NCBI RefSeq assembly: GCF_000524195.1
Contig: NW_020170481.1
Location: 29,499 to 93,498, forward strand
DNA length: 64,000 nucleotides
Origin: Echinococcus granulosus
Taxonomy: Eukaryota > Platyhelminthes > Cestoda > Cyclophyllidea > Taeniidae
Direction: 5' to 3'
Part shown: piece by piece, positions 2,603 through 62,092 of the stretch
Layout: each line of letters begins with the position of its first letter
Position numbering within the stretch: the stretch's first letter is position 1
The notes under the pieces: generated by a model
The model's database searches: none
What the model was told of the DNA's origin: nothing
Seen by the model: the letters and a program-made list of their open reading frames with translations, nothing else
Program-made: the position numbers and the translations under genes

Positions 2603-2864
2603 CTTAGTCGTTTAGTCCTCTGTACTGCTTGGGCTTATTACAAGTTCAGTGAAGATGCAAGACGCTATGAAGTGCTCATTTGGAGAAAACTCCAAGTTAG
2701 AAGAGTAATTAAAGAGCTGACGGAAAGGAGAAAAGTTGTCAGCTAAGTAGAGGAAAATGTATAGCTAATCAAAATAAAATTGACCAACGATCTGAGTATA
2801 TTAGCTTGCAAAACCAATTAAGATCAGTTTAATTAAGCAGATTGGAAAACATATCTAAAGCTCT

Positions 2865-12800: not shown

Positions 12801-15800
12801 GTGCACGCCGCATCTTGCATGAATCAAAAGCATCTGCTACGATTCATTAAAAAGTGTATGCGTTCGCGGGCGAATGAATTTGTGTGTTTGGATAAAAATA
12901 CGGAAGAACCGATCACTTTAAAGCAGGTAGGTGGTGAAATGAGGATATGCGATTCAATATACAAACCCTAGTGGCGTTGCACGCATTCCCACTCTGATGT
13001 TGTCAACGCATCACTCCAAAGAAGCCGATTTTCGGCTTCTAAACTAAAATGATTTACTTGACAAATGAGATTAATGTTTTTTTAAATGTTTGCTTTATCA
13101 GTAGGAAGTGCGTCAACATTGGCTTTCCAATGATCATAAATCCTATCCTAATTTATAAGAGAATCAAAATCGCGTAATTACGAATGTGCAACATTTAAAG
13201 AGGGAGTAAATAAGTAACTCAAATGGTCGGCATTATTACACGCCTAAATTAATTGACTGGCATTCAGTGACATTTTCACCCCCCCTCCCCCGCCTCCCGC
13301 AACGTTTTAGCTTATGGAGCAATTGGGCATTTCTCCATACGACATGAATATTGACAACCTCGACGTCCACGCAGTGAGTATACTAACCGTTTATTCAGAT
13401 AAGAAGCCTTTTTTGTCTTTATTGTACTCCCCAACTATAAGTGTATTAATCTCTCGGCGTTACTGACAACTGTGTCGACTGCTTATTTTATTGCTCATCT
13501 ATTATTTGTGCATTAATGCTGAATTAAATCTTATTGTACCAGGTTGAAGGATTTTGTGTATATCTCCTAGGATCGAAACACCTTTCACCGATTCGACAAG
13601 TTCAACGCCAAATACAATCCCATTGGTCAGAGTCAATTGCGAGAAGTCTTTCTAAAAACTGACAACTACTGCAAGGGCGCGTTCTTTGCTCACGTCCTAA
13701 AGGTGAAATAAATTTTGCCATAATTGAAGGGCTAATATTGTGGATGAGAACTGGTGTTAAAAAATCCCAAGTTTTAATACATTCCGCCTGCATTTATGCG
13801 GTAGACGGTTTACTGTTGGGAATGGTGTTGTTTCAGTTGTTAATAGTTTGCCTACAGATCAAGGGCCTGGGGTAGTTGCCTAAGGTAGACGTCATTTTTA
13901 GCCCTTCTGTTGGGGTCTATCAGCGTCCATCCCATCCGCGGTATATGCGCTTCTTCCGCCCCGCTACTTGGGTTAGGTCCTCCAAGATCGGATTTGCTAT
14001 CCCCAAAGTGACGTGACATTCTGGCCAAAATTGAGGATTACCGATTTAGCAAAAACGACGTTGAAACCCACTGTGATAATGAAAGGTGTGCATATTTCAG
14101 GAGGTGTTTTCGGATCTGGAGGAATCAAAGTATCAGAATGCAGAACCGAGGCTATCCATCTACGGTCGCTCCCGTCACGAGTGGGATGACCTTGCTAAGT
14201 GGGCCATAGACTTTCGTGTATACTCTCCCAACATTCGGTGGGTCATACAGGTGCCTCGACTCTACGACGTCTACAAGTCCAAGAAGGCTGTTGAGACCTT
14301 TCAGGTGAGCTCGGATTCACTGCTGACAAAATTTCATAATTGACAAAAAAAACTGGCTGAAATATGTTTTATTGGCTTGCAGGATATGATAGTCAACATA
14401 TTCCAACCGCTGTTCGAGGTGACCCTAGATCCTGCCTCCCACCCGGAGTTGCACGCCTTTCTTGAGCACGTGAGTGCCTTCGACTCCGTTGATGACGAGT
14501 CTAAAGTTGATCCCATCCACTTCGACTACGGTGTGCCCACTGCGGATCAGTGGAATAGAATAGAAAATCCTCCCTATACCTACTACATTTTTTACATGTA
14601 CGCCAACATTGCCGTGCTCAATCAATTGAGGCAGTAAGTGATGAATTCACTTTTTCATTCTTGTGCTTTGAACATCTCTATGTGTCTGCTTGCTATCCAT
14701 CTAAAATCCATTATCACCTTTATTTTGCACCTTGATGCCTAATGAAAGTTATGTCCCATTTAAATGCCTTAATGTTGGATAATCTTGGCGCATTTGTAGT
14801 AGTAGTACTTCCTTACTGTAATATGTTTTAAATTCTTCTTTTCTTCTTTACTTCAGCCACCAAAAGTTGCACGTTTTTGCTCTTCGACCACACTGCGGAG
14901 AGGCGGGTAGCGTGAGTCATCTGATCTCTACCTTCCTATTGGCTGAATCAATTAATCACGGTCTTCTTCTGAGAAAGGCACCCGTTCTCCAATATCTCTT
15001 CTACCTGTGCCAGGCACGCTAGAAATTAGACAGTAATTTCTCAATATTTATTTTTTTGGTGAGAGCTTTAGCCAAATACGAATAAGTCATATAACTAATT
15101 GAAATTCCAGTTAAATAATTGTAAATAAAGTGAGTTAGTTGCTCCTCCGTACTGGAGGCTTGATTGATGCAGCTTTGAAGTGCTGCGAGATTAAATTAAA
15201 GTGGCTCGAATTTTACGCAATTCGTCTCAGCAATGAGAGAGGACCGACTGAATCATAATTTTTATTTACCATGAGCACCAAAGTTATTTACAACGTTTGA
15301 CGGCGAGGATTGATTGTTTTGTTTTTTTGCATTTTCATCCACAGATTGGGTTGGCAATGTCACCACTAAGCAACAACTCACTCTTCTTGGAGTACCCCCG
15401 AAATCCCCTGAAGGATTTTCTGGCGCGTGGGCTTCATGTGTCCCTGTCCACGGACGATCCGCTGCAGTTTCACTTTACCAAGGAGCCTCTCATGGAGGAG
15501 TACAGCATCGCCGCGCAAGTCTGGAAGCTTAGCTTTACTGACATGTGCGAATTGGCGCGCAACTCCGTCCTCATCAGTGGCTTTCCCGATGTGGTTCGTT
15601 TGCAATTTTATTACTTATATTCCATTTTCTACTTGTTTAAGCGACAGTGATAATTATAGAATCTTTCAGCAGCTCATTAAAAAGTACTACTTTTCCTTGT
15701 TTGAGCGACAGTGTCATAAGTTGACCATTATGAGTTCTAACACGATATCCGCTGTCTTACAGGAAGCCATTCTTTGTGTATTTTTTCCTCAGATGTTCTC

Positions 15801-17167: not shown

Positions 17168-17360
17168 CTACTTGGATGTTGAGTGTCTAACTCTTGGTTT
17201 TGGTAGAGGGTCCACTGAGGTGTTTCACCATCGCACCATCGACGGGTGGGCTGGCCTCCAGGCCATGCCAGTAGCGCCAGCCCTACTGCATTTCACGTGT
17301 TTATATTCTGCCTGGCTATTATGTCCTCTTTCGTCTTTAGAGAAGTCTTGGGGCGCTACA
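17168..17360 (+). mobile_element. Solo TRIM LTR, plus-sense
   Basis: Contains TCTAACTCTTGGTTTTGGTA, GACGGGTGGGCTGGCCTCC and TCTTTCGTCTTTAGAGAAGT, and ends TTGGGGCGCTACA. This is the reverse complement of the LTRs at 2865, 9469 and 11451. The left edge is approximate. LTR only. Confidence 0.75.
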
Positions 17361-19026
17361 GAACTGCTCCCTTTGCAAATTGGCAAAGAACATTGCATTC
17401 AAAAGCAATGCGTCACAACAACTTGTCGACTGCTATTTGGCGTGGCCTATGCGGGTACAGTAATAGCCCCAAAAAACCGAAACGGTACCAGATTTTACTA
17501 ATAGGTTATATTATAATAAGGCGTATTTGTAAAGCCCTTGGGAGTGTGCGGACTTCAGAATTTCAGCCGCTTTGTTCACATTTAGCCTGCAAGGGGTGTC
17601 ACTTTTGGGAGTGAAGTAAACATTTATCCGTGGCTAAGTCGGTGGGACTCTAATGCTAGTTGCGTTTACAATCCGGATTATCGCTTTGTTTAGCTTATCA
17701 CCAAACTGGTGACATGGTTTACACTGCGTTAATGTCGTTCAGTGGACGATTAATGGACCAGCCAAGTGAGCTCATGCGCTTCTTTACTGTGGACGTTAGG
17801 TTTTCTGCCCAAAACGCCTTTCTCCAATGAAATAAAAACCCAAAAGTTTTACTTTATGAAACGTTTCAACCCTAGAAACAAAAACTCCTTGTATTAGTTA
17901 CGTTTAAAGTCCCACTTCCAATTTTCGCATACCTGACGCCACAACATAGACAACAGATATTACTTTGGGGGACATGAGAGCGGGATCGCTCTCGCCCCCA
18001 ATCTAAAGCTCGAATCATATTAAGGGTGAATTTTATACTTATAGTAATGCGGTCACACAGAGCCTTGCAGGAATACAACTTTCAGTTGACTTGTCAATGT
18101 AGCTTGAACAGGCTTGAGTTGTGTCCAGTGGATAGGCAGTCGTAAATGCCATTCGGCCTTCCAGTAGGTAGACCAGTTGGTCTGCAGTCAGAGGGCATAG
18201 GCTTCTGGGGTCCAAGTCGAGCGTGGCTTTGAAGTGTGGAATGGGTAGTGAGAATAGCCGTATCTCCTTGAAAAGCCACACAATACATTCCACGAGTAGC
18301 TCTTGCAGATTTAGAGTCGAGCAGGGCAGACCGAAGTAGATAAATTATGACCTCTCACAAGGCCCAAACAAGTTCCAACAAGACACCACTACACAGGTCA
18401 CGTGACAAGCACAGGACCAATTGACATGACACTTCGCAAGTGACAAGACATGAATTCCAACTATGAGAAGGGGAAAAATTGGCACGTGCTCGCCACAAAA
18501 TAAAATTCTGCAATGCACAGAATCACACAATTGAAAACAACCCATAAAGCCTAGATTTTGTGATATCTAATGCTAATTTCACATTAAGTATCACACCGTT
18601 GTTGTAACCACCCCCAACCATGATGATCACGTCTTCACCCACAGATTCAACAAAGAGCAAAATAAAAAAAAACGTGATTTATTATTCTCATTTAGAAAAA
18701 GAGCATTGACATAATCAAATAGAATTTCGGATGAACGACGATGTTGGTAAAAATTTGGAAGACATTCAGAGGACTGAGGAAGTCATTCTAATAACTACTC
18801 CTTCTAAAATGAGGGAAAGAGGAATAGGAACTTCAAAAAGAGACAGAGAAACAAAACATTTTTTTAAGTAAAAGGGAAATAAAGGCTCTAGAACCACAGG
18901 CTTCTTAAAAAATTGCATTGCTGTTTAAAAAAAGTCGCCAAGGAGTACTTTATTCCGATCAATAGAACTTGAAGGAAATCTCGGTCGGTTGATAAAGGGA
19001 CACGCAAAATAATTAGAAATGATGAT
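17361..19026. other. Intergenic between AMPD and perilipin genes
   Basis: No supported gene. Minus-strand open frames of 66-84 residues at 17872-18545 have no recognised motif and no credible exon boundaries. The true 3' end of the perilipin gene may lie in the right part; TTTATT at about 18678 would be AATAAA on the minus strand. Confidence 0.4.
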
Positions 19027-21758: not shown

Positions 21759-23072
21759 GATGACTGCGAGACAGGCAAGTGCGAGGCCGATTCGACCTAA
21801 TTGATGATCTTATTGGATAAAAGGTTACCCAATCATATGCATAAAATAAAACGTCCAAACAAAACCAGTGCGAAAATTTCACAAAACACTAGCGCTTTCG
21901 AACAGACTTGCACAAGCAATTTTCACGAATATATGCATTTGAGTATATGACATGTAATTAAAGTAATGGCTTATAGTAAAAGGATCAAAATTTAAGAAAT
22001 TACGAAAGAGATCTAAGATTAGACCCTAAAATTAAACAAACTAGAGGCGTTATTGTAAAATAAAATGTGATAAATCTATTCTACAGTTAGTACACTCAAT
22101 TAAGTCTATCTACAGTTAAAAATAATACTTAAATCTGCAGGAAAGGAACGACTTAAGTATGGGATAATTGATGTAGGAAAATTTTAAACAAAAGGCATTT
22201 GAAAGTCTCTTGTGTGGCAAAGTTTCAAGTATAAGTGTCTTTTTAGATATTTGAATAGCACATCAGTGTAATCACCTTCACGCTTGGCGAATTAAACTCT
22301 TCTACAAATTAATAATTGAATGTCTGTAACTTACATGTTGAACATTTATTTGTCTTAAAAATTTTGCCTTAATGGCAAACTAAAAGTAGGTAATTCAGAG
22401 TTGCAACTCAGCAAAACGCCTCCCTTAGTCAGATACATTCCTCAGTATTTGCACCAGTCACTCGGATAGACGCCTAACAAGAATATTTTCACTATTAGTT
22501 TTTGCCTTAGTCTAAGTTATGAATGCATAAGTAGCAGTTTGATTATTTTTAGTAAAGTGTCCACTGAAACAGTATGCAAGATTTCAGTTTTCTTCACTGC
22601 TTGCAAAATACAAATCATAAAATAGTTCAAGTGGCAGTGACAATATGTACAAAATAAACAGTCACGTTCTTAACCAGTACATTTTTGCTTGGCATTATCG
22701 AAAAATATTTCTATCTAGTCATAGCAAAATTTGTTACCGCTTTTCTTTTGGAAAGAGTTGGCTTACTCCTATTCATTGATCAAAATATGCCATGCGAATT
22801 TCCATGGGTTACTCGTTAGTGGGTCATCACTTTTATCAAGAGAATCTCTGTTTGAAAACAATTATAATTAGGTGGTTTTCAACCACATATATTAACTTTA
22901 AAAGTGGTTTCTGGAGACGCGATGACGGCGTTGAAAGAATAAATGAGAAAATACGTTGTTACACATTAACACCCTTGTCTGATTCCAAATTCAAGTGTTA
23001 TGCAACTCCGCAGGATTTTTTTTGAACACGAAAGAAGATAAAATGCTCCGCCATAACATATTGTCATGAAAT
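21759..23072. other. Intergenic upstream of perilipin gene
   Basis: AT-rich, with no open frame of interest except a 77-codon unrecognised one at 22792-23025. It would hold the 5' UTR and promoter of the minus-strand perilipin gene, but no core promoter motif stands out. Confidence 0.4.
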
Positions 23073-23248
23073 GGTTGTTAACCCCCTGTTGTACTAAGGA
23101 GCTACTTATTACTCGCCCATTGTACCGCACTGGATAGGCTGACTTTTAGGCTACCCACTAGCTCTAGTACCTTCTCTGTTCTAAACACGTATATTCTACT
23201 CGAGTGTTATGTCTTCTTTTGTCTTCAGGGAAATCTCGGGATGCTACA
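23073..23248 (+). mobile_element. TRIM LTR, plus-sense, in inverted pair
   Basis: Runs from GTTGTTAACCCCCTG through CCCATTGTACCGCACTGG and ATGTCTTCTTTTGTCTTCAG to CTCGGGATGCTACA. It is immediately followed by an LTR fragment in the opposite orientation. The left edge is approximate. Confidence 0.7.
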
Positions 23249-23261
23249 ATTTAAACTAGAC

Positions 23262-23381
23262 ATACAGAATGTACTAGGCCTATTGGCGTGGGCCGAAGGC
23301 AAGCTCACCCAGCTTGGTACAACGGTCAAGTCAAAAATTGCTCTTCACCAGAGCCGAAGGTTAAACAACTATCGTATTACA
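23262..23381 (-). mobile_element. Truncated TRIM LTR, minus-sense
   Basis: Plus-strand GGCGTGGGCCGAAGGCAAGC, CACCCAGCTTGGTACAAC and GGTTAAACAACTATCG then TATTACA match the second half of the LTR read in the other direction. The first 60 or so bases are missing. It lies 13 bp from the preceding inverted LTR. Confidence 0.65.
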
Positions 23382-24737
23382 GCTGCGGCTATTCGATAGA
23401 TTTTTAACTTTGTTTGGCTGTGTGGTCAGATTGTACATCCGCTTGAAGACATTGTCAAAAGCCCCATCTCTTCTCTACGTAAGTAATATACTGTCCGTCA
23501 CGCTATCATGGCTTTTAGGAATCTGATGAAGACTCAGGATTAAGCAGTTCCCTAAAGCCAAGATTAGTTTAAGCTAATTTATTAAAAGATCAATTCAAAT
23601 TGTAGTAAAGGCCATAACTATTCGCTTAGCGTAAACGCTTTTTTTAAGCGCACTTGGAATACCTATTTATCGCTTAGGATTAAGGGCTCTGTTTAAGAGT
23701 TAAGTAATCAACAGATGTGTTAAAGGGTGACGAAGGTTATTACGTAGACGAAACGAGGCTTGCTATGCTACTAAATAAATGATTTACCCTTTAGTACTCT
23801 GCCTTTCGAAACCAAGACGTGAGGCTCGAGGTTGCGCAGAATTAAAAAATATTTCACTAATCATGGTAGGGATATGTGAATTAGTTCTCCGAATGTCATA
23901 AATACTGCAATGATTGGGCCCTCAAAATCCTATGCAAACGGTAATCAGGGCAAAAAAGCGGTTCTAAGTAGGATGAGGTGTGGGGTAAATCATGGGAATA
24001 TGCTAATAATTACCCGGAACTTTGTGCCACATTCAAGGACACCAACGCCAGATTAGTAACTGAAGTATTATACGTTGGGTTTTTGATTCGTTAGCCTTTC
24101 TACATTATCACCAGTGCTCTCACGTTCCATGTCATATGGATTACTTTTATGTAAAATGAGGCTCGAGAAGAGCTTTATTTGTGTTCTATTTTACTTAAAC
24201 AATGGTATTTCATGTTTGTCACTTGTTTACTTCTTGAGTAGTCTTATTATTATTTGAGTTTGGACGTATTCGAGGAATAGTTAATTTGAATTCTCAGGAA
24301 TGATATCCGGGTTCTACACTACTTTTATTTTTAAATCCGCCCTGCAATAGGTGGAAAAGTTATTTTTGACAATTTTTTGATGCATAAGATCTACCTGTTT
24401 TAACAAGGGGCACCTGTCACAGCAGCCTCAATTTTTGCCATTTAAACGCAAGAATCTTAAGGATTTCGTGGTTCTTTGAGCAGGAAATTCTTTGCCTCGT
24501 CTAGTAGCTTTATAGTGGAATTTGGCCAAGCACTGCATTAATGGATTGCGTTTCATTATTTGATATCACACATTGCCGTCCTTTGGATTACGTCAAGTTC
24601 GTTCGTGTTTGAAGTCCTCGCCATCAAAATAATTTTTACGGAACTATCGCTACCCTTCCTTTAGTTAAGTTCATTTGTACTGATGATGAATACACTTTTG
24701 ACTTGCTAAGTTACCCATCATCCTAATCACACTTTAG
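23382..24737. other. Intergenic upstream of FAM114A gene
   Basis: No coding potential was recognised. The last bases before the ATG at 24738 form a 3' splice-like site (CACACTTTAG) directly abutting the start codon. Confidence 0.4.
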
Positions 24738-27700: not shown

Positions 27701-30700
27701 TATTCTACAATTTGAATCAGTACTACTTTCTTCTAGTTGCAAAAAAGGTTTTAATGTGCAACATTCAATTCGTGTATCGAATTCAAGATATCGAAGTTCC
27801 ACGACTCGAGAAGTGTATTTTCAGAAGAAACACGGAATTCGAGCAAAATCTTTTACGCTTTTATGAGACCTGTGTGTTTTAAGCCCCTTCAGGATTATTT
27901 TGTCCTCAGGTCTTGTAACGTTCAAGTTACAGTGTGAGAGAATTCGCTTTTCTGCTGCCTTATGACATGGCAAATACACTCTTGTTTTATAATTAAAATG
28001 CTAATTTGAACTATCCCTAGATAAATTGCGGGCCTTTTTGCAGATTTGTGAGCTCTACTGGAGGGTTTTTTTGCCTTTTCTTTTAAAGACATCATTGGTG
28101 GATTCCCCACTTTTCTAAAAGGGCCCACAGTGCAGGCTTAAAGTGATTTTGGCATTATTTCTTGTATATTCTTGATGAATGATGTGAACACATCTAGCTT
28201 CAGTGAACGTTAAGCGACATTAAACGGTTTTTTGGTCACTTATAGCTTGGGGTAGCTTTAGAATTTAGCAGGGAAAATGCTTCCGTATCCCAACTCATCA
28301 CCACTGTGATTAATGAGACTCTTCCGTAATGGTATTTTGGACGCATGCCAAATCTCAGTTGCTTCTAGATTGATGCACTTTTTACGGGGTTCTATGTGTT
28401 CATGTGTTTTGTCCTTTTTGCGTGAGAAATTGTGGTGTTGCTTGAACCATATTTACTTTGACCTATTAGTTTTTCGGAGGTTCATTTGTTACACCTCCCT
28501 CTCCTATATTTGTAAACACATTTTAGTGTGTTAAGTGCAAATAGTTCCTTTATTCTGCGAAAAACGATAGTTTAGGTGGATTTTTTACCACTGAGAATCA
28601 TTTTAAGCCCGGTACGATTTTAGTAAACCATAGCGTTAAAATTTGGGTTGATAATCCAATCATTCAAGCGCGCCGTAAAGGCTGGTTTGTAGTTTCTCCT
28701 GCAGAACATCAGTAGTTAATGCTCCTGCTTCACTATGACAAGTATTCTGGTAACTAAAAAGAGAAGTCAAGTTTTCTCTATCACTCTCCAGGTGCTACGC
28801 GAAGCCAGCGACCAACACACTGCACAGCTTTCTGACGAACCTCTCTCCAGCCAATCGGAGGCGCGTCGTGGTGACCTAGCCTCTCAGCTGGAATCACGCC
28901 TCGCCCTGGTGCACATGGAGGCACTGAAATTGCTCAGTTCCCGTGCTTCCGCACGCCTTGGCATGAAGTTGGCACAACTGGAAGGTCCCCACAACAACGA
29001 TGACGAGGAGCATCATCACAGTGTTCGCAGTCTCACCGCAGAAGGTGGTGTCCTAGAGCGCATCTGGCAGACACTTCAGTTGAAGGATCAAGAGGAGAAG
29101 GAAGACGTGACGGAAGAAGAGGCCTCTGTTTCCGCAACTACTCTTGTTGGAGCGGTGACGGCGTTGGAGGCGGTGGCTCCCGGAAATGCGCTCTTGAAGG
29201 TCTTACCAGCACTTGGTCTGTTGTCTTACCCCTTTGAACGTCAGTTTATTGTTGCTATTTTCTGTGGTTCAGACCTGCGAGGAGGTGCAGCAGAAGTGCA
29301 AGCATTTGGAGTCTGATGTACCAATGAAGGTAAGTAGCTGGTATGAATTCGGGCTGTTGAATTCATGAAGAGTTTCTATCATTAAATCGGAGTAACTCAG
29401 AAGCGTAAATTACTGTAAAACAAAGTTACTCTACTGTTTACATCTAGTTGGAAAGTTTTAAAAGAAGGTAATAGACACTTTGTAATACTTCATTCGACTA
29501 GTTACTCCATGTTTAGGATTAAAAACTAGTTTTTTGTTGCATCTGTTTACCCCCTTCCAATTTGTGCCTTTGTTAGGAGATCTTTTATCAAGCTGTTGAG
29601 GCGTTGGCAGACCTGACATCGGCCATTCTCGCCTACCTACACAAACTGGCCGAGTGTCTGCTCCTCCTTGGTCACAACCGTGAGCTATTCAACACTAGCT
29701 TCCTCGATGTGGCCGAAAAAGTCGCCAGGTCTGTCTCCCTCTCTTAGCACTCTAGCATTATTAACTAATAGCGGCACGAATTCGGCAGTTTTCTGTTGGT
29801 TTGTCCTTTTCATTATTAGTACACTCGATCATACTTGGAGTTGGGGATTTACACAAATCAACTTTGTGATAGCAGTCCTTATTTGATCATCGTCTTTTGC
29901 GTCTTTGAATGCACTTAAATACTTTTTTAAGGGTCTTCTGGTTTTAAAAGCTTCGAATGATACCTACTTAGTGAATGTACTATTACAAAAGTTTTAATGA
30001 GCGGAATATTGAGGCATCTTACGCAACGGTACTTTACTAGTTGAGGCCATTAACAATGGAGCTAGAATGATGCCGACTTGCACACCTTGGAAAAACAGAA
30101 GAAGTCATGCTCTGCTTATTTGGGAGCGGGAATTTTGCCAGATGTACTGTTGCATTAGTCTGAGAGGGGGGGAGGGCAGTTGCATTGAGTGGCAAAAATG
30201 GCACAGCAGACTCATTAAAGCGTTATTTCTCCTAATTCAGTATTCTCACTGCGGCAAAAAGGCAAAACGAGACCATCTGTTCGGTATACGTTGGGCATTT
30301 GAAGGCGGTAAGTCTGGTCTATGTGATTAAATCAGCTTCCATTTAAATTAGAAGAAATCCTAGTTTACCAAGACTTAGTAAATTGATTTGACTTTATGCA
30401 AATAAAAGGCCTAATGTCAAGCCACGAGGCTTCCAGTAGGGCTTGGGGCTACTGGCACGTCTCGGGTGCCAGATCACCTGGCGTAAGTACAATGGCAAAG
30501 TACCTAGGTGGCCTCTTTACCAATCACGTGAGTTGGACGGACAACCAGCGCACTACACAGTCCTCCTCCTCTTTTGAGCCTCGTCCTCGATTCCTCCCTT
30601 GGTCAACCTCCACAACATACTCGGTGGTGCTGGAAAAAATCCCACTAGCCGACCCTTCCCAGTCATCGGATTTTCATGCAATTGAGGAGACACTTGACTA

Positions 30701-32226
30701 TAACGAAACTGATCCCTCTCGACAACCCCGTTGAATCTAGGATTTTGTTCTGTATGGGAACTGCATCGGTGGACAGGGGAATACGCTAGCCATCACGCGC
30801 GTCCATAGCTAGAAACACTGGCCTAAAGGCAGAATCATGTAACAAAGAGCGGAGTTGATCATAGTTCCATAGGGTTAGGGGTTCCCTTTTTTCTCATTTC
30901 AGAGCTACCTAGCCATATATATCTGAGTGGAGGAGGTATCACCTGTTCACATATTTGACAGCTTCATACAGGTACAGCAGGCAGTTTCGTGATAAAACTT
31001 TTCCAGATGGTTTATGGCTAGCGTTGCTTCAGCTGTTAATAGCTTTCATTTGGACCAAGGCTCTAGGGTAGTTGCCAAAGGTAGACGTCACTGGTTCTCT
31101 CATTCCGCCCCGCTAAGATTTATCATCCAGCGGGAGAAATTAGGATAGAGGCCCTTTAAATTCGGGTTTGCTTTCCGCTGCCACTAGTGTAGCCCCTCGA
31201 GACTCCCCTGAAGCTCGGGCAGGGCTACTGGCACGGCTAGGAGGCCTGCCTGTTGGCGCAGTTCCCCAAAACAAACAAGTTATCACTATGCGACTTGTAG
31301 CTATTCAAGCGGATGTACGCGCCTTTGTGTGTCGGGTGGCGTTATGACTTGCGGTGTTCCTCTTTGATTGCATCATAATGTCACGTTGACAGTTGCCCTT
31401 CTTGGCAAAATTACAAGGAAAGTCATTTCGGTTACAAGCTAGTAGTGATTGTATGATCAAGTTTACGAAGTACTGTCAAAAAAGTGGACTTTCCGGCCAC
31501 TAATTTGTGGGAATGTGACTGTTAATTTTTTGGGCCACCATTTACTGCAGGAAACTTGTACACGTAATAATGGTGCCTGGTCGTGTTTTTCTCAGCACGA
31601 TCATTTCCAACGGAACGGTAAATCTCTTCAGCACGAAGTATGAAATGTGGCCATTGGCTAGGGTTAAAATTACTTCCTTCCATTGTTTTATCCGTGTCGG
31701 GTTTGGGTCCCAGTCAGTGGTTTTGACGCCTTATGGGGACCATTCCTTTGTCCAACAGATTGGGATGTCTTGCCTCGGAGAGAGGCTTTGCTTCGTCAAC
31801 GATGCCGGTTAGACTATGGTGAAATCAGCATAAAGCCAATGAGCTGGTTCAAGTGAGATCTAAATGATGAAGTAGGTGGGCAGCGATAAGGTTTGCAAAC
31901 ACTTCTTTTATTTCGGCTTCACTTGAAAAACACATACATGCCCTAATACGTATATCGACTACCAAGTGAGTTATTTTCGCATTGTCTAGGCGGCCTCAAG
32001 CAACAGCACAGAGGAAGGGGTGGAGGAAGCATTAACGACGAGTCGTCGGCTAGTGGCAAACCTCTTTTTGGAGACAGGAATGGCAAACAGCTACTTAGAT
32101 GATGCAGCCGCCAATCATCTTGTACCAGTCCTCCAAGTAGCTTGTCTGGACGTCTTCCTCCCGGAGTCTACATTGACACCAGCATCGTGTCATCCACCGA
32201 TGTCCATGAAGGCCAAACAGCGTTGA
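24738..32226 (+). CDS. FAM114A: FAM114A (NOXP20) family protein
   Basis: FAM114A proteins are peripheral Golgi or trafficking-associated factors of uncertain function. Exons seen are 24738-24824, 24896-26500, 27515-27664, 28792-29199, 29273-29329, 29577-29728 and 31990-32226. Family landmarks are GGWGAWDLGSLAKSL (the WGxWG..LLS segment), GGVDVLEQIGRKTFTALKEN, then VLREASDQ, YQAVEALADLTSAILAYLHK, and the C-terminal LVANLFLETGMANSYLDDAA. The 535-codon second exon is very acidic and carries a repeated WDxxDDPW unit, with DPW near residues 106, 236, 346 and 404. Exon 6 ends in phase 2 but the last exon starts in phase 0, and about 20 family residues are missing, so a small exon between 29729 and 31989 was not found; a TRIM copy occupies that intron. 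The 29199 donor (GTCTTA) is weak. The start ATG directly follows an AG acceptor. Confidence 0.85.
30436..31286 (-). mobile_element. TRIM retrotransposon copy D
   Basis: Two LTRs in direct orientation, both shortened: the left one (about 30436-30557) lacks its first 40 or so bases, and the right one (31188 to about 31286) has an internal deletion. They flank about 630 bp of internal sequence. A pyrimidine tract (30561-30575, polypurine on the minus strand) follows the left LTR. At the other end TTTGCTTTCCGCTGCCACTA before the right LTR is the complement of the primer-binding site. Internal landmarks are GCTTCAGCTGTTAATAGCTT and GGGTAGTTGCC. It lies inside the last FAM114A intron. Confidence 0.8.
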
Positions 32227-46324: not shown

Positions 46325-46830
46325 GTGCTTAGTTGCTCTCCTCTATTAAGCGCAGTCAGCAGGCCCCACGGACCAGTAGTGCCAGTCTCCGACTAGCCAT
46401 GCAAACGAGGAGGTACTCGATCGCAGCGCTACTGGTGCCCCTCGTTAATTCTACCAGACTTGGAGTTTCGTCTTGCATGGAAACCGCATTCGGGGCGGAA
46501 AAACTCGGTGGTCATTACGCCTATTTATGAGTGTTCGTAGGGATACTGGCTTATAAACAGAGTCATGCAATGAAGGGCAGGTTTCAGAATAGCTTCGTGG
46601 GAGGAAGATTTTGTGTCTGTTCCACCTTGACACGTTGGTTTCACTTCCGTGCTATCCAGTTGTATCAACCTAGATTCTGTCTAGGTAGTAGAGAGGTAGA
46701 GAGAGAGATCCGGAACAATACTTTTTTTTTGATTATTTACAGCTAGTGTTACATCAGTTGTTAATAGCTTTCCTCCGGACCAAGGACTTGGAGTAGTTGC
46801 CGAAGATTGAAAAAGTTTTCGACCCTCCTA
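46325..46830 (-). mobile_element. TRIM internal-region fragment
   Basis: Matches the internal region of copy B over most of its length: ACGAGGAGGTACTCGATC, CGTTAATTCTACCAGACTTG, CATTACGCCTATTTATGAGT, then TTACATCAGTTGTTAATAGC and GGACCAAGGACTTGGAGTAG. No flanking LTR was recognised on either side, so it is a decayed or truncated copy. Confidence 0.7.
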
Positions 46831-47743
46831 TTACAGTTGAATAAGTAATTAGGTGCATTCAATGCTTGAAGAAATTCCTCTTCACATGCATTTTACCTTT
46901 GAAACTGTGATGAGCAAGAAAAGCACTTTTGCCCTGTTGAGATGCTTGAATGTGCGTGCGGTGGCCTCCTATGAGCTTGACATGGGTGGATCTCTACAGA
47001 GGTTAGATAAAATACGACTTTGTGATACCAACTCCGATGTCAAAGGGAGGGTCCTTTGGAATTAAATTAGGCTGCCTGTCACAGATACCGTCAAAGCAAT
47101 TATCTAGGTTGAAACCATAACTGCTCCGATATTACGCCTTTGAGGCGTGACTGGACTCTGGGCTATGCCAGGAGCCCCAAGCTCTACTGTGGGCCGGCAA
47201 TACACATTTAGCAAAGTGTCGAGGCGCCAAATAACAAAGGCCATTTGCAAGTTATCAAAAAAAAGAACGCAAAACACAGGACTGCTCATATTTTTTGCCC
47301 TTGGAAAGGTAGATAATAATTGGATCTAGACACAAGTTCAGTGAGCCAAAATGTCTCGCCTAGGCGTCGGTGGGTGTGTCTGATTTGCACCATTTAAGTG
47401 TAATAACAGGGTGGTGTGTGAAGGATAATTTTTCCAAGCCTTTATCTACTTCTCGCCTTTGAAATCAAGAAATTAATTGCTCTAGGCCTTTATTTTTCAT
47501 ATTTCGTTCAAATTTGAAGTTGCTTTACCATTTGCTCACCTACTTTGTTGAACGCCCCACTCACTCTGATGGTCGGTTAAAATGACCAAAATCCTCCAAT
47601 CCCTCTGCCAACTCATCAACAAGGAGACTTTATATGTGAAAAAAATATCACTTCATCGTAACTTGACGACAATTCTTTGTAAGTACAAGGGTTCAAATAG
47701 TTGATTCTGAAGTAGCAAGGAGGAGGTTACATCAAAATTAACA
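46831..47743. other. Spacer between tandem ALP genes
   Basis: Includes a probable plus-sense TRIM LTR piece at about 47120-47200 (CTGGGCTATGCCAGGAGCCC, AAGCTCTACTGTG). A 70-codon open frame at 46853-47065 has no recognised motif. Otherwise no gene was recognised. Confidence 0.45.
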
Positions 47744-49779: not shown

Positions 49780-50644
49780 TTAATCCGCGCTCATTGGTGG
49801 ATGCATTTTTGCAAGTGCGTGTGTGCGTGCGCAAGAGCGCGCATTTGAAGGCCCGTATGAAAACGACAAAAAATGTTAAAGCCCCTTTCCTCTCCAGGAA
49901 ATTTGTAGAAAAAAAAGCATTTTTATAGACACCTGGAACTATTGATACCTACTTCTATTTTTTCGGGTAAAAAGAAACATAATTTATTGAGCCGATGATA
50001 ATATGGAATTGTAATTCCCTCCCCATGGTCAAAATACAACCAAATGGTAAACCAAGAAAGTTAGAAGAGGTTCTGTTGGCAAGGCGAGGTAGTTGGTGCG
50101 GTTTTGCTTTTCTAGTTACTTATTTTGATCAGAACCCACTGTTTGGTGGTGGCAACATGTGCAGTCAATTTGTAACTACAGAGCTAGACAATGTGAAATA
50201 ATTGTAATTACCCTTCTGGACAAGTAAATTATTTAGTAAAAATAGGTTGAGCAACTAGTCTTTAGGCCACTGGTGAGCAAAAATTGAGTAACTATTGAGA
50301 TACTGCTGCGTAACTACTTCTTAGGAGGTCATTGAAGAAAATTCGTTACATGCCTAACTTTAAGGCAAAATAAGCACATATTCTAGGCACACAAACATTT
50401 AAGGTGTTCAATTCTGGCAACAACTTTTTGGATTTTTTCATGTGATAAAAGATAAAGGTTTATCAAAACAAGGCGGGTCAGTGGCTATGTAAACACCCAT
50501 TGACAACTTTTCATTTGCATCATGTCTTAACAATAACACCCTATGAAGGTCATGATTTGTTCAAAGGAAAGGAACGGTCTGGGAGTATGCGTAAAGCATC
50601 TGTTGTAATGTGTTGGTAGCTTGTTTAAAGCCCGATTTTCGTGA
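49780..50644. other. Region upstream of ALP 2
   Basis: Contains a short GTGTGTGCGTGCGC purine-pyrimidine alternation near 49818-49840 and no recognised coding sequence. It presumably includes ALP 2 upstream regulatory sequence. Confidence 0.4.
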
Positions 50645-50799
50645 AGGGTTGTCACCTAGGGGCTCCGCCATTGTACCTTCCCCGGGTGCGTTGGCCTCTG
50701 AGCCACGCCAGTAGTCCTCAGCCTTGCCGTATGTTGAATATACAAATTCTGCCCAAGTATCATACTTCCATCGTCTTCAGAGAAGTGTTAGACGCTACA
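50645..50799 (+). mobile_element. Solo TRIM LTR, plus-sense
   Basis: Carries GGGCTCCGCCATTGTACC, GTTGGCCTCTGAGCCACGCC and CCATCGTCTTCAGAGAAGTG, and ends GACGCTACA. The first part of the LTR is missing or too diverged to see. No internal region is attached. Confidence 0.7.
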
Positions 50800-53497
50800 G
50801 TCTATCACAAGAATATTTTTAAAGTCCTTTTAATTAAATTCTGAAGGCTAGAATCGTAATGCACAAGTGGTGCGCACTGCGATAGACTCAAGGTGGACTT
50901 AATCAAAAGACCGATTTTTCTCCTGACATTTCAAAAAGTACCAAGTTTTGGGATGGTTAAGTGATCATTAAATGTGACACACCTAGGTGGTGGTCATTGA
51001 CTTGGCTTGTAAAGGGAAAAAGCCACACCCGAGCTCAAAAGCTTATGACGACGCGACAATTTGAATGTATAATCCCCGAACTTTAATGCAACCTTGTCGA
51101 TGAGAATGGTGAGGGGTTCGTGGCCGTGCCTCCACCGATGAGACAACAGCAAAATAGCCATATTATTCGCGCCAAAACACTTATTCAAGATTTGCACTTG
51201 TTAACAAATATTAAACGCAAAGGAAATGCAGTCGCCTGATTTCGCTACCTATTACAAATGGTTTCTCACCACTCTTAAGAGTGGTTCGTCTGAATTAATA
51301 GCCGTACAGGCTATATCCCGTCAGGCCATTTGGACAAATGTCAAAATCATTTGCAATTACAACGGCTTTTTTCCTCTTCTTGACAATAAGTTGTTTAGCA
51401 TGCTTGATAAAGTACAAACTCATTGTTTGCTAACACTGAGTGCTTTTCATACATTTGAAGCTGTACAGGATGCTAGCCCCCTACAAAGAATGCTTATTCC
51501 AGGTTGCTTTGAATAAACTCCCATTCAGAGGTCGCATAATACAGTTTAGATAAAGTCAAAATAGAAAATTAGTTTCACAGTTTTTGCTGAGTAGGTTTTG
51601 TTGCAAAGTATTTTGGATATTCTTTTTGGAAATTATACACTATCTGATTTCTAATCCAAAGGCTTACGTGGATTTGAAAATAAGAACAAGAAAAATTGGA
51701 AGTTATAACACAGGATTGATGAAAGTGTGCGGCTTAGACTGGTTGACTTTAAGAGAAACTGAGTTTTGAAATAAAAGCCTAGAAGGCAGGAAATTTAATT
51801 TTGTTCATGAAAGAACATATGTCACTGACGCTAACCCGGCACATTTACATTTCGCGGGTTGAGGATGCAGAATGACTACGCTGGCAATCATGTACTAAAA
51901 AGGGATTTTTAATGTGCGTTTTGAGGGTAATGGTCGCTGCAATCGACTAAGTGAAAAAGTTAAAGGGCATTTTTTGGCGCCTCCAGGCCTAAAGAAGCTC
52001 TTTGCGACACCTTGGCGGAAACAACCAAGCCCACACAATAGAGATAACACAAAAAAGGTAGGATGAAAGGATTCACTTGAAAGAGACGTCATAAGCCGAA
52101 AAGGGATTACGCCGCACGCTTTGGCTCACATTCATGGCTTTAAGATTGCAGCACCCATCTCAGGAAGGTGTATCCGCCTCTCGGGTGTGCTACGGTGTAA
52201 CTAATAAGTGTAAGCGGAAGAAATAAAAATTGGTGGTGATTTTATGCAACGGTTTGCGTGAATTTGAACCCATCGTCGGGTATGCGTTATCCTGTCTGCC
52301 ACGCGGTGGTAAACAGGCCAAAATTTTAAGTGTCGCCTCCATGGTAATTATTCCAATCCTTCTCCAATAAACGACTCATTTATGAGTACTTTTAAGGCAA
52401 TATCATGATCACGGAAAAGCATTTTTACTCGTAATTACAGTAAGTTATTGCAATTATTGAAACGAAGTGCTTTGTCGAGCCTAAACAATTTGCATCAAAT
52501 GAAGACAAATCGAGGGAAATAAATAAGCAGAAATTCATCCTAATTCTAATTGCTTCAAATTTAATGGAAATTATTTAAGCAAGAATACTTAATTTCTATA
52601 TCATGAAGTGTGAATTCTACTATTTTAGGTTTCCAAGCATGTCAAAATACGGAAACTGCTTGCCTGCAATAAAAGATTTATATATTTGCAACTAGGTTGC
52701 ACAAATTTTCACCGACACGGTATCAAAGTGACAGACACAAAGCAAAACTAGTCTGTAGGAAAAAATTACAATTTCGCTAAATTGACTAGCTTCCACAATA
52801 ATGCTCCTACCTAACCAAAAATGGATTGTAGATAAAAGAGACTTTCAGGATTCTCATGTTTTGTTGTTAAATGGAAAACAGTCCCTTTGAATCTACAAAT
52901 TATGCATGGTAAATCACTGTGGGAAATCCTGCTAAGATCTTAGGAAAATAACGAATTATGCTTTCTTTGATTTGGTATTACGGGACTGGGAACATAAACA
53001 TAAACACTGCAAACGCGATTCACACAAGTCAAAACTTGTTGAAAGGCGCTCAGATGGTAAAATTACTCAATCAGACATTTTAAAGCAAACGTTTAATGCA
53101 AGCGTAATTGTGTATCCGAAAAAAATCGGTAAGGAAAATAAATAATTAAGTAAACCTGTGCTGCGGACGGAGAACATAAAGTAATATCTTTTTTCCTGTT
53201 TGTTAACTTATGAACAGGACAAAATCAGAAAAATACTGACAAAATTAATTAATATTTTGCAGGGTTGAAGAACACTTAGAGTAGGGTACAAATTTCGCAA
53301 GAGGACTTTGTAAAGTACGCGGACTTTCTAAGCAAATGCAAGAGCTAACCCAGTTAGTGCACTAGTGCATAGACATGCTACTGTTCTGCCTTAGTAACAA
53401 GAGAACCTATTTGCAAGGATTACACTTTGCCGCTGATACTGACGCGAGTTATGAAGCAGATTGCCCTGTCACACTTACCAACATCTAGTATGCTCAA
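50800..53497. other. Intergenic, no gene seen
   Basis: 2.7 kb with no open frame above 96 codons and no recognised protein, RNA gene or TRIM piece. Confidence 0.5.
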
Positions 53498-54584
53498 TGT
53501 GGCGTTTCAACACTATCCTGGAGACGAAAGAAGACATAATACGCGGGTAGAATATGCATATTCAACAAACAGAAGAACTCGCGGCCACTGGCACGGTCCG
53601 GAAGTCAGGCAACCCGGCGAAGACACAGTGGCGGAGCACCTAAGCGACCACTTAGCCAAAACCGAGAGGTAAACAATCAACCAATGAACTGCATATCCTC
53701 TCCTCCACTTTTGAGCGTCATCCTCGATTTTCCCCTCAGTCGACATAACGTAATCGGTGCCGTGAGGATACGCCTACGGAACAACTGCTCCAGTCTCCAA
53801 GTGTCTATGGAAATGAGGAGGTACTCGATCATAGCGCCACTGATCCCCCCCGTCAATTCTACTAGACCCAAAGTTTCGTCCTTCATGAAAGCTGCGTTCG
53901 AGGCGGAACAACGTGCAAGTCATTACGCTTATTTGTGAGTGTTCGTTGGAACATTGGCTTATAAACAGAGCCATGTAACGAAGGGCAGGTTTCAGCGTAA
54001 TTCCGTGGGAGTTAGATTTTACGTCTGCTTCTCCTAGACACGTTGTTCTCACCTCAGTGAAATCCAGTTGTATCTACCTGGATTCTGTGTAGCTGGAAGA
54101 AAGGTAGAGAGGGACGTCCGCATACAGTCACAGTACGCGGCTCCGAGGCAAACCATTTTTTCAGATGATTCACAGCTAATGTTACTTCAATTGTTAATAG
54201 CTCTCTTCCAGACCAGGGACTTGGAGCAGTTGCTGAAGATAAGCATAATTTGCAGCCCTTCTGTTAGAGGGTACCACTGATTCTCCCAACCGCGGCATGT
54301 GCACTTCTTCCGCCCCGCTAAACACAATAGCCCAGTAGTAGGAATGAAGTTAGTTCCCCTTTTTAAAATCGGGTTTGCTTTCCACTGCCATCAATGTGAC
54401 GACCCAAAGCTTCCGCAAAGAACAGAGAAGCTATAAAACTCGCGCAGAATAGATGTATATATATATTTGGCATAAGGTGGGGCTTGGAGCTACCGGCAGC
54501 CCGCCCGGCGAAGGTGCAATGGCAAGGATCTGAATTGGCCCCTTTACCGAAACCAAGGGTTAAACAAACAATTAAAGTATTACA
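53498..54584 (-). mobile_element. TRIM retrotransposon copy B
   Basis: Two direct LTRs, about 53498-53692 (starting TGTGGCGTTTCAACACTATC) and 54397-54584 (ending AAGTATTACA), flank about 700 bp. After the left LTR lies a pyrimidine tract at 53695-53711, which is the polypurine tract on the minus strand. Before the right LTR, TTTGCTTTCCACTGCCATCA is the complement of a slightly mutated primer-binding site. Internal open frames under 95 codons show no gag, protease, reverse transcriptase or integrase signature. Flanking bases do not form a clear target-site duplication. Confidence 0.85.
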
Positions 54585-56939: not shown

Positions 56940-59584
56940 ACCAATTTTTTTGTTCATTTACGATTCTTTAAGACAAAACCTAGACGAGCATATTTGTTAT
57001 ACTGAACAATACTTGGGCAAATACTTTAGATTGTGGTCGCTGTTGGGTTCTTAGCTGGCTTCAGTGGCGCCCGAATTTTGGCTGAAGAGACACTGTTTGT
57101 TAAAAAATAGAAAGTTTCGGCTTAATGTTGCGCTCTCCTCGCCGGAAATTACATTTCAGACCTTCGGTTAGACAGGACTGTCTATATCTAATGCAGCAGT
57201 ATCTTACAACCATGGCTGTATTAGCGAACGGGACTAAATTCCAACCTCGCGTTTGGTATTACTTTGCACATTGCTCAGGTGAGAATGGTTTGCAACTCAT
57301 CGGTTGTCATGTGCCTTGAGTGAATTACTACGAGAGAGACGTATTTTTGGGCGGCAGCGTGTTTTTACCCTATATCCCCAGACCCTTTCTTGATTGTACA
57401 TGGTAAAATAGGTTTTGGTAAGTGTTTAACCCTATTTTTTGGTCTCCGTCTGGTTGCTTCTGCTTTTTCTTGAATTGTGGGTGATGTAGAATCTTTTGAA
57501 AAGTGTAAACCCTTCAAAATTGAGGAGTTATTGGCATTTGCAGACTACTTCTTCGGCTATGGCGTGGATGAAACTGCCCTCCTTGTGCCTTGAACACCCC
57601 CCCTTCCCCATTTGTCTGCGCCAATTAGCAGTCTCTCGCTCATTTAGTTAATGGGGTAGGGCAAACGCCCTCACGCTGACATGTATCAGGATATATGGGC
57701 GGGCTTATCTCTCTTGCGGTGTCAAGCCACCAGCTCTTGTGTGGCATTTACGGAAGAAGAAAGCTCACTCTACATTCCTCTTTAGACAAGTACCATATGC
57801 CAGTTCAAGGGGGAAGGCATTTTTGCCAATTTGCCGGTGGTGCCTCAATCAAGACACGCATGTCTTTACCTATTCTCATCCTTTAGCAAATTTTGCTGTT
57901 CTGCGAATTCGTCAGGTAACAGGCGTCATCCACTTGTCACCCCGTCGATGTCATGCCTTCTTCCAGCGTTGGATTGTTTGATTTTTAGAATGGACATCAG
58001 CACTTGGCTAACCTCACGCATACACAGTTACGCATGGTGATTCGTGTCCAGTTCACCAACGCCCTGGTAAGGCTTATTATTATTATTGGCGTGTCGATCC
58101 CTTAACTTTGTCATTTCTTTTGTCTTTAATAAACGGTTTTGGGCTGTAGACGAAGTTGTCGTCCATTTCAATGGTGCACTCTGGGCGTTTTTGAGCGGGA
58201 CGCTTCGTCGCGTCTTTGATCCAACCCTCAGTCTTGTCCGGGCTGGGTCTAGTCAGCGACTCCTCTATCCTCTCCCTACCTCGCATAGTTCGCAGAGCCA
58301 ATCACAACTGTTCAATTTTGTCGATGGACTCTCGGCTTAACTTTTCCATGAGGTAATTGCTCAACTGAGCCATTATTTGTTTGTCAGCATACTTCATTGT
58401 TGCCTAAGTGATTGCCACACGGATGTCCTTCCCTACTAGCCAGCCGATAGATCCACACTTGATTCCTTCAGTCTTTTCATTATTAATGCATAGTGAAATT
58501 TGCATTTTCAATTTTACTGTGCTATCCATACGTTGTAGTCATTCCAACTGCCACGTGCGACTCAGCTTGAGTTCGTTGGAATGCCACTTTGACTGTGCAA
58601 TTTCCAAGTTGCAGGCGATGCCTATGGTTGCATTCGCGACATGGCATAACATGTTTTCCCTAATCGAGCACTGGAAATCACACCTACACGACTTGTCACT
58701 TCGCATACCATGCAAGCATAACCACTATTACCTACCGGACGATTTTGGCTATTTTAAATGTGTGCCGATGCACTACATCGGTGCACATGGTTAAGTGGAC
58801 TCGCTTGAAGGTGTGCTCATTTCTGCCATCCTAAATTGTTTAAGGTTTTTGCTGAAGATGCAACAATCCCCAACGCATTCTTGGCTGGCCTCCCCCAGTC
58901 TGGTGACATTCAACAGGTGTCTACGGTACGAAGTGCACTGGAGAAGTTGGAGCACATGTCTTGGAGGAGGTGGGCTGACACTCCTCGGGAACAGATGGAA
59001 GGTGCGACGAGGCGAGGGGCAAACTGGTAAGTTAATTCCTAATCAAACAACGCGCTGAACAAGTTGCATTCCATTTCACCATCTGCTCACCATGCGTGCT
59101 TTGCCTCGTGCTCAATCTCACAGTGATTTCTGCATTTCATTACTTGTATGCATGCGTTTCAGCATCACCTGTACGGCAGAGGAGGAAGACTCGCAGTCTG
59201 AACCAGTGGGTTGATAGGAGTGTTCGCTTGGTCCCCTCGCCTGCATTCACCATTGCGTGGTGTGAGATGACGAAGTCAGCATTTGAATGACGGGTTGGTA
59301 TGCTCCTCGCAGCTCCAGTGGCCATAACCAGTCCCTCCACCGGCATCTTACACAGACACTGGGAATCGACTGTACACAGGTTGCTGGCATTAAAGCGCTC
59401 TGCTTTTGTTTTCAAAGTCCGCCTCCGCATTGCGTTATTGGGTTGGGAAGTGCCTATGTCAGTAAATGTCACTCATGTCAGATGTTTTACCTTCACCCCC
59501 GGTGCTGTAGTTCACAATGTATCCGGCGTTGACGTGGCTTTTGTAGCGCTACCTCGGCCAGGCGATCACACGTGCACCCCCTTA
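56940..59584. other. Region without recognised gene
   Basis: Scattered open frames of 60-128 codons on both strands (for example 58408-58794 and 58834-59030) have no recognised domain and no consistent splice pattern. Probably degenerate repeats. A short ATT repeat sits at about 58075-58087. Confidence 0.35.
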
Positions 59585-59690
59585 AAAGGATCGCCCTCGC
59601 TTTCTACTGTCACTAATGCAGCCCCGCGGGGCCGCTCTGCAGACGGAAGGAGACATTATACTCGGCCGGCATATGTATTGATGTATGCAT
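59585..59690 (-). mobile_element. TRIM fragment: PBS side plus LTR edge
   Basis: TCGCTTTCTACTGTCACTAA followed by TGCAGCCCCGCGGGG and GCAGACGGAAGGAGAC matches the junction of the internal region and LTR seen in copies A-D, decayed. The rest of the LTR and internal region was not found. Confidence 0.5.
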
Positions 59691-60066: not shown

Positions 60067-60687
60067 GACCTGAGGATATGGAGTAGAAACACGCTACCAC
60101 CCCAAATCGACCACACTGAGAATACTGCGACACGAAAGACACAGCAGCTGATGAGTTGCAAACCATTCTTGCCTGACTAATGCGTGAAGTAATATCAAAC
60201 GCGAGATTCGCATTTAGTTTTGCTTGATGATACCTCCATGCTTATCAAATAATGCTCCATTTGAGACACATTCTTGTCAAATTAAGGGTGCAAGACGTCA
60301 TTGTTCCAAGCAGAGCTTAATAATTTACCGAAACTTGACTTTTTTGAAGGAACGATACCTTTCCAACCAAAATCCCGGTGTTATCAAAAACGACAACAGA
60401 TCCAACAATAAAGATGATTTAAAGTGACCATGTATGGAGCCGTTCATCAAAACGAGTGAACGGGATTCTGATCTTGTCCTATAACCAAAACAAGGAAGCA
60501 GTAAAATTCATTTAGGTGAAAGAGAACAATACTCGGGCAGAATATATATTCAGCATAGAGAAGGTGTTTGGGGTACTGGCATGGCCCGAAGGGCTGCCCA
60601 CCCAGCGAGGTACAAGAAGGCAAATCCGAAAGTTTAAAAGTAGCGCCTCACCAATACCAAGGGATAAACCACCACCGTCTTACATAG

Positions 60688-60701
60688 CCTCCCCCTCTTT
60701 T
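60688..60701 (-). other. Polypurine tract of TRIM copy C
   Basis: CCTCCCCCTCTTTT on the plus strand is AAAAGAGGGGGAGG on the minus strand, starting 3 bases internal to the LTR. Equivalent tracts occur in copy D (30561-30575) and copy B (53695-53711). Such a tract primes plus-strand synthesis in LTR retrotransposons. Confidence 0.75.
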
Positions 60702-61155
60702 CAGCGTCGTTCCCGGCGCTCCCGCAGGTCAACCTCCCGCGTCAGCCATTACAGCGTAGTCGGTGCTGTGAAGGAACACCCACGAGCCGACCGTACCAGT
60801 CACCAAATTAGCGCGCAACTGAGGGGATACTTGACCTCAACGTCGCTGATCCCTCTTGGCTGCTTGACTGGATCTGCAGTTTCGTTCGGTTTAGGGATTT
60901 GATTCAGGACGGTAGGGGAAATCCGTAACGAAACTTCCAGATGGTTCACGGCTAGTGTCGCTTCAGTTGTTAATAGCTTTTCTGCAGAACATGGGACTGA
61001 GAGAGATGCTGAAGGCGGACGTCAACATCAACCCCTCTATATGGGGTCCTCACCATTCTCCCATCCGCAGTATATGTACTTCTTCCGCTTTACTAAGGCT
61101 TATCACGCAGAAGTGGAAAATCAGGATACATATCCTTTAGGATTGGGTTCGCTTT

Positions 61156-61167
61156 CCGCTGCCACCA
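61156..61167 (-). other. Primer-binding site of TRIM copy C
   Basis: Minus-strand TGGTGGCAGCGG one base from the LTR end. Its complement CCGCTGCCACCA equals the acceptor end plus CCA of many eukaryotic leucine tRNAs, and similarity extends into a T-arm-like GGGTTCGCTTT. Decayed versions occupy the same place in copies A, B and D. Confidence 0.75.
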
Positions 61168-61364
61168 ATGTAGCGTCCCAAAACCTCCCTGAAGACAAAA
61201 GAAGACACAATACTTGGACAGAATATATAGTCAGCACAGAGAAGGCGTTTGAGGTACTGGCATGGCCCAAAGGCAGCCCACCCAGAGAGGTACAAGAAGG
61301 CAGAATCCCTAGGTTCAAACGTGGCGCCTCACCAGTACCGAGGGATAAACCACCATCGTATTAG

Positions 61365-62092
61365 GATACATGTATAATTAATAATTTTTACGTGTACCCA
61401 TAAGCCTAAAAGAATCTTTCATTTAAGATATTTGTTTTATGTTAAGTTACTGAAAGCTAAAACATCAGGTTAAATATGATCCTCAAATAGTTTTGTAGGC
61501 ATTTTTGACAGTACAATCATTCTATTCTTCCTGTAGTGATTTCCATCTATGACCTCCCACTTCATGAACCAAATTAATAGTGCTTGCAAGGCTTTTGCGA
61601 CTAACTTTGCGCAAATAACTTTGTACGAATGACTTTTTGTTTTCTGTAGAATGTGCTTCTTGCATGATGATTTGAATGCAAGACTTAGCTCATTTGGTAG
61701 CTACAATAACTTGTTGCTCGAGTTGTGGAGTGAATGGGCTTTGGACGCAAGAATGCACCCTCTTATACTTGCAGTGCGCCATATCTGTCTTTGTCATTTA
61801 CCTTAAATGAATCCGGGTTTGGGTAGAATTTGTGAGCACGCAATTGGCAAACCGTGTAAAAACATACCATTTGATAACTTGGCCTTATTCCTGGGCTTGA
61901 AATTAATTCGACTATGCTAAAATTGGAGCAAAATAACTAACTCTAAGATCAATTAGATCGTGTAATAAAAATGCCTTGGCAACACAGTGTTGCGTCAGCC
62001 TAAAATGAGTGTAACGGTGTGTTGCCAAGTAGCGTGAACTTGAGCTTTCTAGGATGGCTGCTGTGAGAGAACTGAAATGAGCACGTAAGTGG
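61365..62092. other. Intergenic, no gene seen
   Basis: No coding or structural feature recognised. An 85-codon minus-strand open frame at 61912-62169 overlaps the family 2 repeat and has no domain. Confidence 0.4.

Follow-up and report, generated by a model that had tools for sequence, protein, structure and literature searches.

The window analysed here is a stretch of 64,000 nucleotides of Echinococcus granulosus DNA belonging to contig C172 of the genome that was searched (103.6 Mb in 272 contigs). On its minus strand, from approximately 60518 to 61365 (earlier delimited as 60508-61364), it carries a short element bounded by long terminal repeats (LTRs), hereafter copy C, composed of the following parts:

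61169..61365, minus strand: 5' LTR, with inner end CTACA and CC where the outer TG belongs
61156..61167, minus strand: primer-binding site TGGTGGCAGCGG, exact over 12 bases and separated from the 5' LTR by a single base (61168)
60896..60916 (G000:C172:90394-90414), minus strand: short-form junction, with one CCGTCC in place of the CCGTCC and additional 109 bp of the common form
60688..60702, minus strand: polypurine tract (PPT) of 15 purines, followed by CTA and then by the 3' LTR
60518..60684, minus strand: 3' LTR, starting with TG at 60684, its final ~30 bases gone

The two LTRs are direct repeats with 86.7% identity over 158 bp, and the primer-binding site at 61156-61167 on the minus strand is the sole exact match within the window. 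The original prediction presented copy C as the full layout of an LTR element without genes, bounded by TG and CA. Its two direct LTRs, primer site and purine tract are all found, but TG and CA are missing from the two outer ends: CC takes the place of the expected TG at 61365-61364, the start of the 5' LTR, and the 3' LTR is recognizable only to ~60518, the missing ~30 bases including CTACA. A target-site duplication was sought around the copy and none was found. Copy C is damaged and shortened, and full layouts with duplications are encountered at other loci of the genome.

These loci were collected around 100 of the 200 exact primer sites of the genome (99 loci, the hundredth site being that of copy C) and from the 30 best DNA matches to copy C; at first look, 40 of 2,261 candidates were scored. 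The final set of 102 loci includes four window copies, was deduplicated by flank with 13 same-locus duplicates taken out and required an internal match. Both LTRs were mapped at 62 of the 102 loci, showing that the repeats are LTR-flanked at many independent places, and over many copies the anatomy reads TGTAATAC..CTACA, Y, TGGTGGCAGCGG..AAAAGAGGAGGGAGG, CTA, TG. In copy C and in many other copies, the PPT comprises ~15 purines and lies three bases upstream of the 3' LTR. The LTRs of common copies, a size class defined below, start with TGTAATAC in 42 of 58 cases; this count, the open reading frame (ORF) count and all trees were obtained from an 88-locus set in which loci sharing their first 60 internal bases had been treated as duplicates, a criterion that eliminated distinct young loci too. 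Exact 4-bp target-site duplications border 28 of the 62 two-LTR loci (shuffled mean 1.1, maximum 6) and two of the 62 display an exact 5-bp duplication without a 4-bp one. The main text describing ta-TRIM, a non-autonomous LTR retrotransposon of taeniids, reports duplications mostly of 4 bp in E. multilocularis and of 5 bp in Taenia (Koziol 2015, PMC4558846); judged by this contrast, an Echinococcus is the likeliest host.

Eight genome copies were checked against the primers that had been designed for ta-TRIM in the published work on E. multilocularis. RACE2 and WISH_F match exactly in six of eight copies each and RACE1 in three, and the WISH reverse primer, with 4-6 mismatches in each copy, in none. 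Copy C itself shows no mismatch to WISH_F, one to RACE1, six to RACE2 and six to the WISH reverse primer, to be compared with 5 to 9 mismatches, by primer, for the best of 20 shuffles. LTR length, PPT spacing, internal length and 4-bp duplications agree as well. The original prediction had left undecided whether the family was the taeniid one or a new one; since the ta-TRIM primers match the window family, its guess of a taeniid TRIM was right and the family is already known. The small new part consists of three nested internal sizes, changed at one spot. A new TRIM family, considered as a candidate, is ruled out by the matching primers.

The window was searched with 16 real copies originating from other contigs. 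Thirteen places covering 6,422 bp were recovered, and none in the reversed window, so that the copies A, B and D announced beforehand, together with fragments, do exist. Besides copy C, the places are listed below, all fragments being those returned by the window search:

2545..3054, both strands: ta-TRIM-derived fragment(s)
6925..7935, minus strand: copy A, of the old long form; two mismatches in the primer site at 7739-7750
9498..9633, minus strand: ta-TRIM-derived fragment
11449..11632, minus strand: ta-TRIM-derived fragment
13823..13969, minus strand: ta-TRIM internal fragment
17178..17364, plus strand: ta-TRIM-derived fragment
23023..23382, both strands: ta-TRIM-derived fragments
30434..31213, minus strand: copy D, an old form that underwent additional losses; one mismatch in the primer site at 31175-31186, PPT present
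46358..47212, both strands: ta-TRIM-derived fragments
50601..50800, plus strand: ta-TRIM-derived fragment
53495..54584, minus strand: copy B, of the old long form; two mismatches in the primer site at 54382-54393, 5' LTR starting with TGTAATAC
59579..59686, minus strand: weak ta-TRIM-like fragment

Copies A, B and D are older than copy C, to which they are ~70% alike in the matched pieces. The density of ta-TRIM in the window is somewhat high, with 13 places against 7.8 per 64 kb near other copies. Twelve additional places were counted in the 98,465 bases surrounding those copies, and none in 27,015 bases at 15 element-free loci.

Coding capacity was assessed in 53 copies. No ORF exceeds 120 codons in 50 of them; the other three are decayed old copies with ORFs of 149-154 codons, the latter value being the longest of all. 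A limit of 120 codons is likewise given for ta-TRIM in the main text of PMC4558846. Four ORF products, two of them from decayed old copies, found no match in Pfam. No gag-pol was thus detected in the 53 copies, and a hidden one was rejected on account of the short ORFs and the lack of Pfam matches in the four products. Together with the exact 12-base site in copy C, this result supports a TRIM with a primer site of the leucine tRNA type.

The sequence following the LTR reads Y-TGG-TGGCAGCGG. The CCA end of tRNAs is added after transcription, and eukaryotic tRNA genes carry no CCA tail; TGG complements CCA. The primer site therefore comprises 12 bases and begins one base from the LTR when CCA is counted, whereas nine complementary bases located four bases from the LTR were reported in the main text of PMC4558846 from a comparison with tRNA genes. 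As eukaryotic tRNA genes lack CCA, the two descriptions are reconciled, and the restated site agrees with ordinary tRNA priming. The 12-mer TGGTGGCAGCGG occurs 200 times exactly in the genome, compared with 18 times for its reversed form, and 15 of the 99 fetched loci hold no match to a ta-TRIM copy. Four patterns, one of them with faulty spacing, recovered no leucine tRNA gene from the assembly. In an RF00005 search, 63 of 4,447 candidates were scored and gave at least 11 matches; the eight tRNA genes examined, distributed over seven loci, were of the Thr, Ala, Asn and Gly types and none was Leu. One of the four patterns, designed for tRNAs of class II (Leu/Ser), returned nothing genome-wide, and tRNAs were few among these 63 of 4,447 candidates. 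In this assembly, tRNA genes may be missing or masked.

Using one real common copy as reference, the 102 loci were ranked by internal size into 41 common, 14 called old, 9 short, 6 other and 32 partial loci. The old class is reduced to 13 once L078, which is a common copy carrying an insertion at another position, is set aside. The internal region of common copies measures 595 bp. The 13 old copies are ~70-86% identical to the reference and carry a net 77-146 bp extra, and the nine short copies, copy C included, have 107-110 bp fewer (109 bp at the junction); the share of short loci does not reflect a random sample because most were found using copy C as query. The size changes of these two classes lie near reference base 460, and short repeats occur at the junctions. 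The short-form join reads CCTACCGTCCTGAATC, and in the common form a CCGTCC repeat flanks the 109-bp piece; in the old copy L098, an ACCGT repeat flanks the piece that is absent from common copies; L005, which lost ~198 bp, shows GCCG at one of its breaks. Genome-wide and at up to three mismatches, the short junction was found 12 times (control 0) and the common junction 86 times (control 1). Of the 12 sites, eight are verified short loci, two fall on the downstream repeat in common copies and two are candidates. A short pair of contig C264 was missed by this pattern. Its members, L015 and L016 (G000:C264:1813040-1813825 and 1841008-1841793), lie 28 kb apart and have an identical upstream flank, which probably denotes a segmental duplication, and they were counted once. 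The main-text sections of PMC4558846 that were compared make no mention of ta-TRIM size classes; in the main text, the word 'deletion' appears once, for decayed expressed copies, and 'shorter' and 'indel' are absent.

The divergence between LTRs differs among these classes. K2P distances range from 0.005 to 0.231 (median 0.092) at 33 common loci devoid of N, 6 of the 39 two-LTR common loci having been left out of the dating as N-containing. They range from 0.058 to 0.197 at eight short loci, where the value of copy C is inflated because the end of its 3' LTR is missing, and from 0.204 to 0.492 at the measurable old loci, L078 aside. Two of the 33 common loci fall below 0.03, and one deletion copy stands at 0.031. 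For copy C, a divergence of 13% over 158 bp translates into an age of the order of ten million years at a rate of 7.1e-9. Two common copies with LTR pairs 98.0 and 99.5% identical look young from their sequences; by arithmetic at the same rate, the youngest would be less than half a million years old. This rate is that of PMC4558846, whose main text gives 6.1% as the minimum LTR divergence of ta-TRIM in E. multilocularis, and the two copies would be younger than any reported there. Gene conversion or assembly copying may also account for the high LTR identity of the youngest copies.

When 17 old copies are compared with one common copy, conservation amounts to 75.7% in interior 213-457, to 69.5% in 566-775 and to 65.2 and 64.3% in the LTRs. 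The primer site reaches 96%, a biased figure since most loci were chosen by their exact primer site. RNAalifold, run on the internal 5' part of 66 copies (246 columns, five windows), revealed no conserved RNA structure, and a set of 25 old copies gave none either; because of neutral decay, this null result is uninformative.

The relationships between copies were investigated with a tree of 58 copies from which the variable stretch was excluded, copies without the needed stretches being left out. The 16 old rows occupy one side of a branch whose support of 94/93 falls short of the program's star, and they are arranged as a ladder beneath the other copies; the data therefore fit a single first loss. 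Judging from divergence and from this tree, the size classes would have succeeded each other from old-long to common to short. The origin of the short form is less straightforward. The short loci could be ordinary insertions, each of them shortened in place by the same 109 bp, the 6-base repeat on which the break sits acting as a slippage hot spot. The best tree argues in that direction, since its nine short rows are scattered and require at least four changes (a single clade has an AU p of 0.050), but part-trees do not reject one short clade (AU p 0.22 for the left part and 0.5 for the right). Moreover, all nine short loci break at one repeat, later substitutions allowed for, and the other net losses in the 102 loci (L003, L005, L074, L120) each have a unique size. 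We regard in-place loss as rather unlikely. Exact 4-bp duplications flank four of the eight short loci with both LTRs; as these are intact and all different, the short elements probably inserted as such. From these sequences, the short form was probably mobilized as such; its loci may go back to one origin, to repeated loss at the repeat or to exchange between packaged RNAs.

Another way to generate size classes would be the packaging and insertion of spliced ta-TRIM RNA. Cis-splicing does occur in some ta-TRIM loci according to the main text of PMC4558846, but inspection by eye of the printed copies showed that no register allowed by the repeats gives the removed stretch GT..AG ends, and splicing appears highly improbable as the source of the classes. 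A further reading, somewhat more likely than not, is that ta-TRIM shrank while moving, losing ~117 bp and then 109 bp at one point, in addition to ~198 bp in one young copy, that all forms jumped and that the family was recently active in this genome. If true, the genome would constitute a natural deletion map in which both ends of the internal region, but not its middle, are required in cis.

Among the 15 fetched loci without a match to a ta-TRIM copy, two, L044 and L066, are alike just before the 12-mer. L066 contains pieces of reverse transcriptase (RT), of RNase H and of a DUF5726 protein, and its relatives across the genome account for at least 62 matches (40 of 222 candidates scored). 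In L066 591-1232 (minus strand), the DUF5726 frame runs through and past a second, inverted stretch resembling the primer site, the locus being scrambled; this arrangement points to DUF5726 as the Gag protein in the lennie-like element. Three relatives of L066 (L137, L138 and L139) display the LTR start TGTAATACTTATRTTG, found 390 times in the genome at up to two mismatches (control 7). L138 (G000:C105:14730-15230) also carries a ta-TRIM LTR, oppositely oriented and separated by a few dozen bases from the lennie-like LTR start. Put together from two ends at different loci, the lennie-like element has an LTR that starts with TGTAATAC and ends with CCTACA, followed by C and the 12 bases. Its first eight LTR bases and its primer site, which is present in L066 and L044, are the same as those of ta-TRIM. 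The lennie Pol protein has 1327 aa (PMC12471100, main text). Among the frames listed at 26 RT matches, none corresponds to a full-length Pol and the longest has 694 aa with one stop.

This likeness raises the question of whether ta-TRIM is a decayed autonomous retrotransposon, a deletion product of lennie, and not a TRIM with its own history. The first eight LTR bases, the CTACA end of the LTR and the primer site are shared, and some old copies exhibit a short extra likeness at their LTR ends. Past the first eight bases, the latter is slight, few copies are individually significant and the copies, being related, do not count as independent. In copy B, the first 19 bases of the 5' LTR (54566-54584) show two differences from the lennie-like start, a score attained by 9 of 100 window shuffles; this likeness may reflect common ancestry of the LTR ends. 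Against such a derivation, 16 copies compared with the lennie-like sequence, itself partial, gave nothing better than E 0.01 beyond the LTR end with the primer site and a neighbouring ta-TRIM LTR, and none of the four ORF products tested matches Pfam. We consider it improbable that ta-TRIM derives from lennie by deletion.

It is very probable, in our assessment, that copy C is an old, damaged, short-form ta-TRIM, belonging to a family mobilized in trans and marked by two internal losses. In the corresponding scheme, the LTR promoter, which has been published elsewhere, would produce a short non-coding ta-TRIM RNA; the main text of PMC4558846 reports transcription from the LTR in germinative cells. 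This RNA would be packaged and copied by proteins acting in trans, most likely those of a lennie-like Ty3/gypsy element. A leucine tRNA with the 3' end CCGCTGCCA plus CCA would prime the minus strand at the 12-base site present in the copies, and the purine tract would prime the plus strand. Integrase would then join the TG..CA ends, with the 4-bp duplication observed at the target. The forms and junctions found here indicate that the internal region lost DNA at one place, between short direct repeats, presumably twice and in the order given above. Reverse transcriptase jumping between the repeats would be the likely cause of these losses.

Several known systems can be compared with this element. 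The Helenus and Ajax TRIMs are gene-less LTR elements, some of which use a leucine tRNA, and in this respect they resemble ta-TRIM; according to PMC10886601, they originate from small-RNA genes. No Rfam family was matched in five ta-TRIM loci or in the window, and a small-RNA-derived TRIM was rejected on this ground. The lennie and Saci2-like Ty3/gypsy elements share with ta-TRIM the LTR start TGTAATAC, the CTACA end, the primer site and its distance from the LTR, as far as the published main texts go (Koziol 2015; PMC12471100). They differ by encoding RT and RNase H, and the remainder, of which only pieces were compared, is without a match better than E 0.01. The main text of Koziol 2015 (PMC4558846) makes the same case for lennie as the partner of ta-TRIM. 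With ta-TRIM as described there, our copies have in common LTRs of ~198 bp, the LTR ends, the leucine primer site, the PPT and its 3-base spacing, an internal region of ~590 bp, 4-bp duplications, the letters of the primers and the absence of coding capacity. They differ by forming three nested size classes, a division that the compared sections of that main text do not describe. To the known ta-TRIM, the present analysis adds the nested shrinkage at one point, the restated primer site and the two youngest copies, and the size classes amount to a natural experiment on the internal bases required for a TRIM to be packaged and copied, a question left open in the compared sections of PMC4558846.
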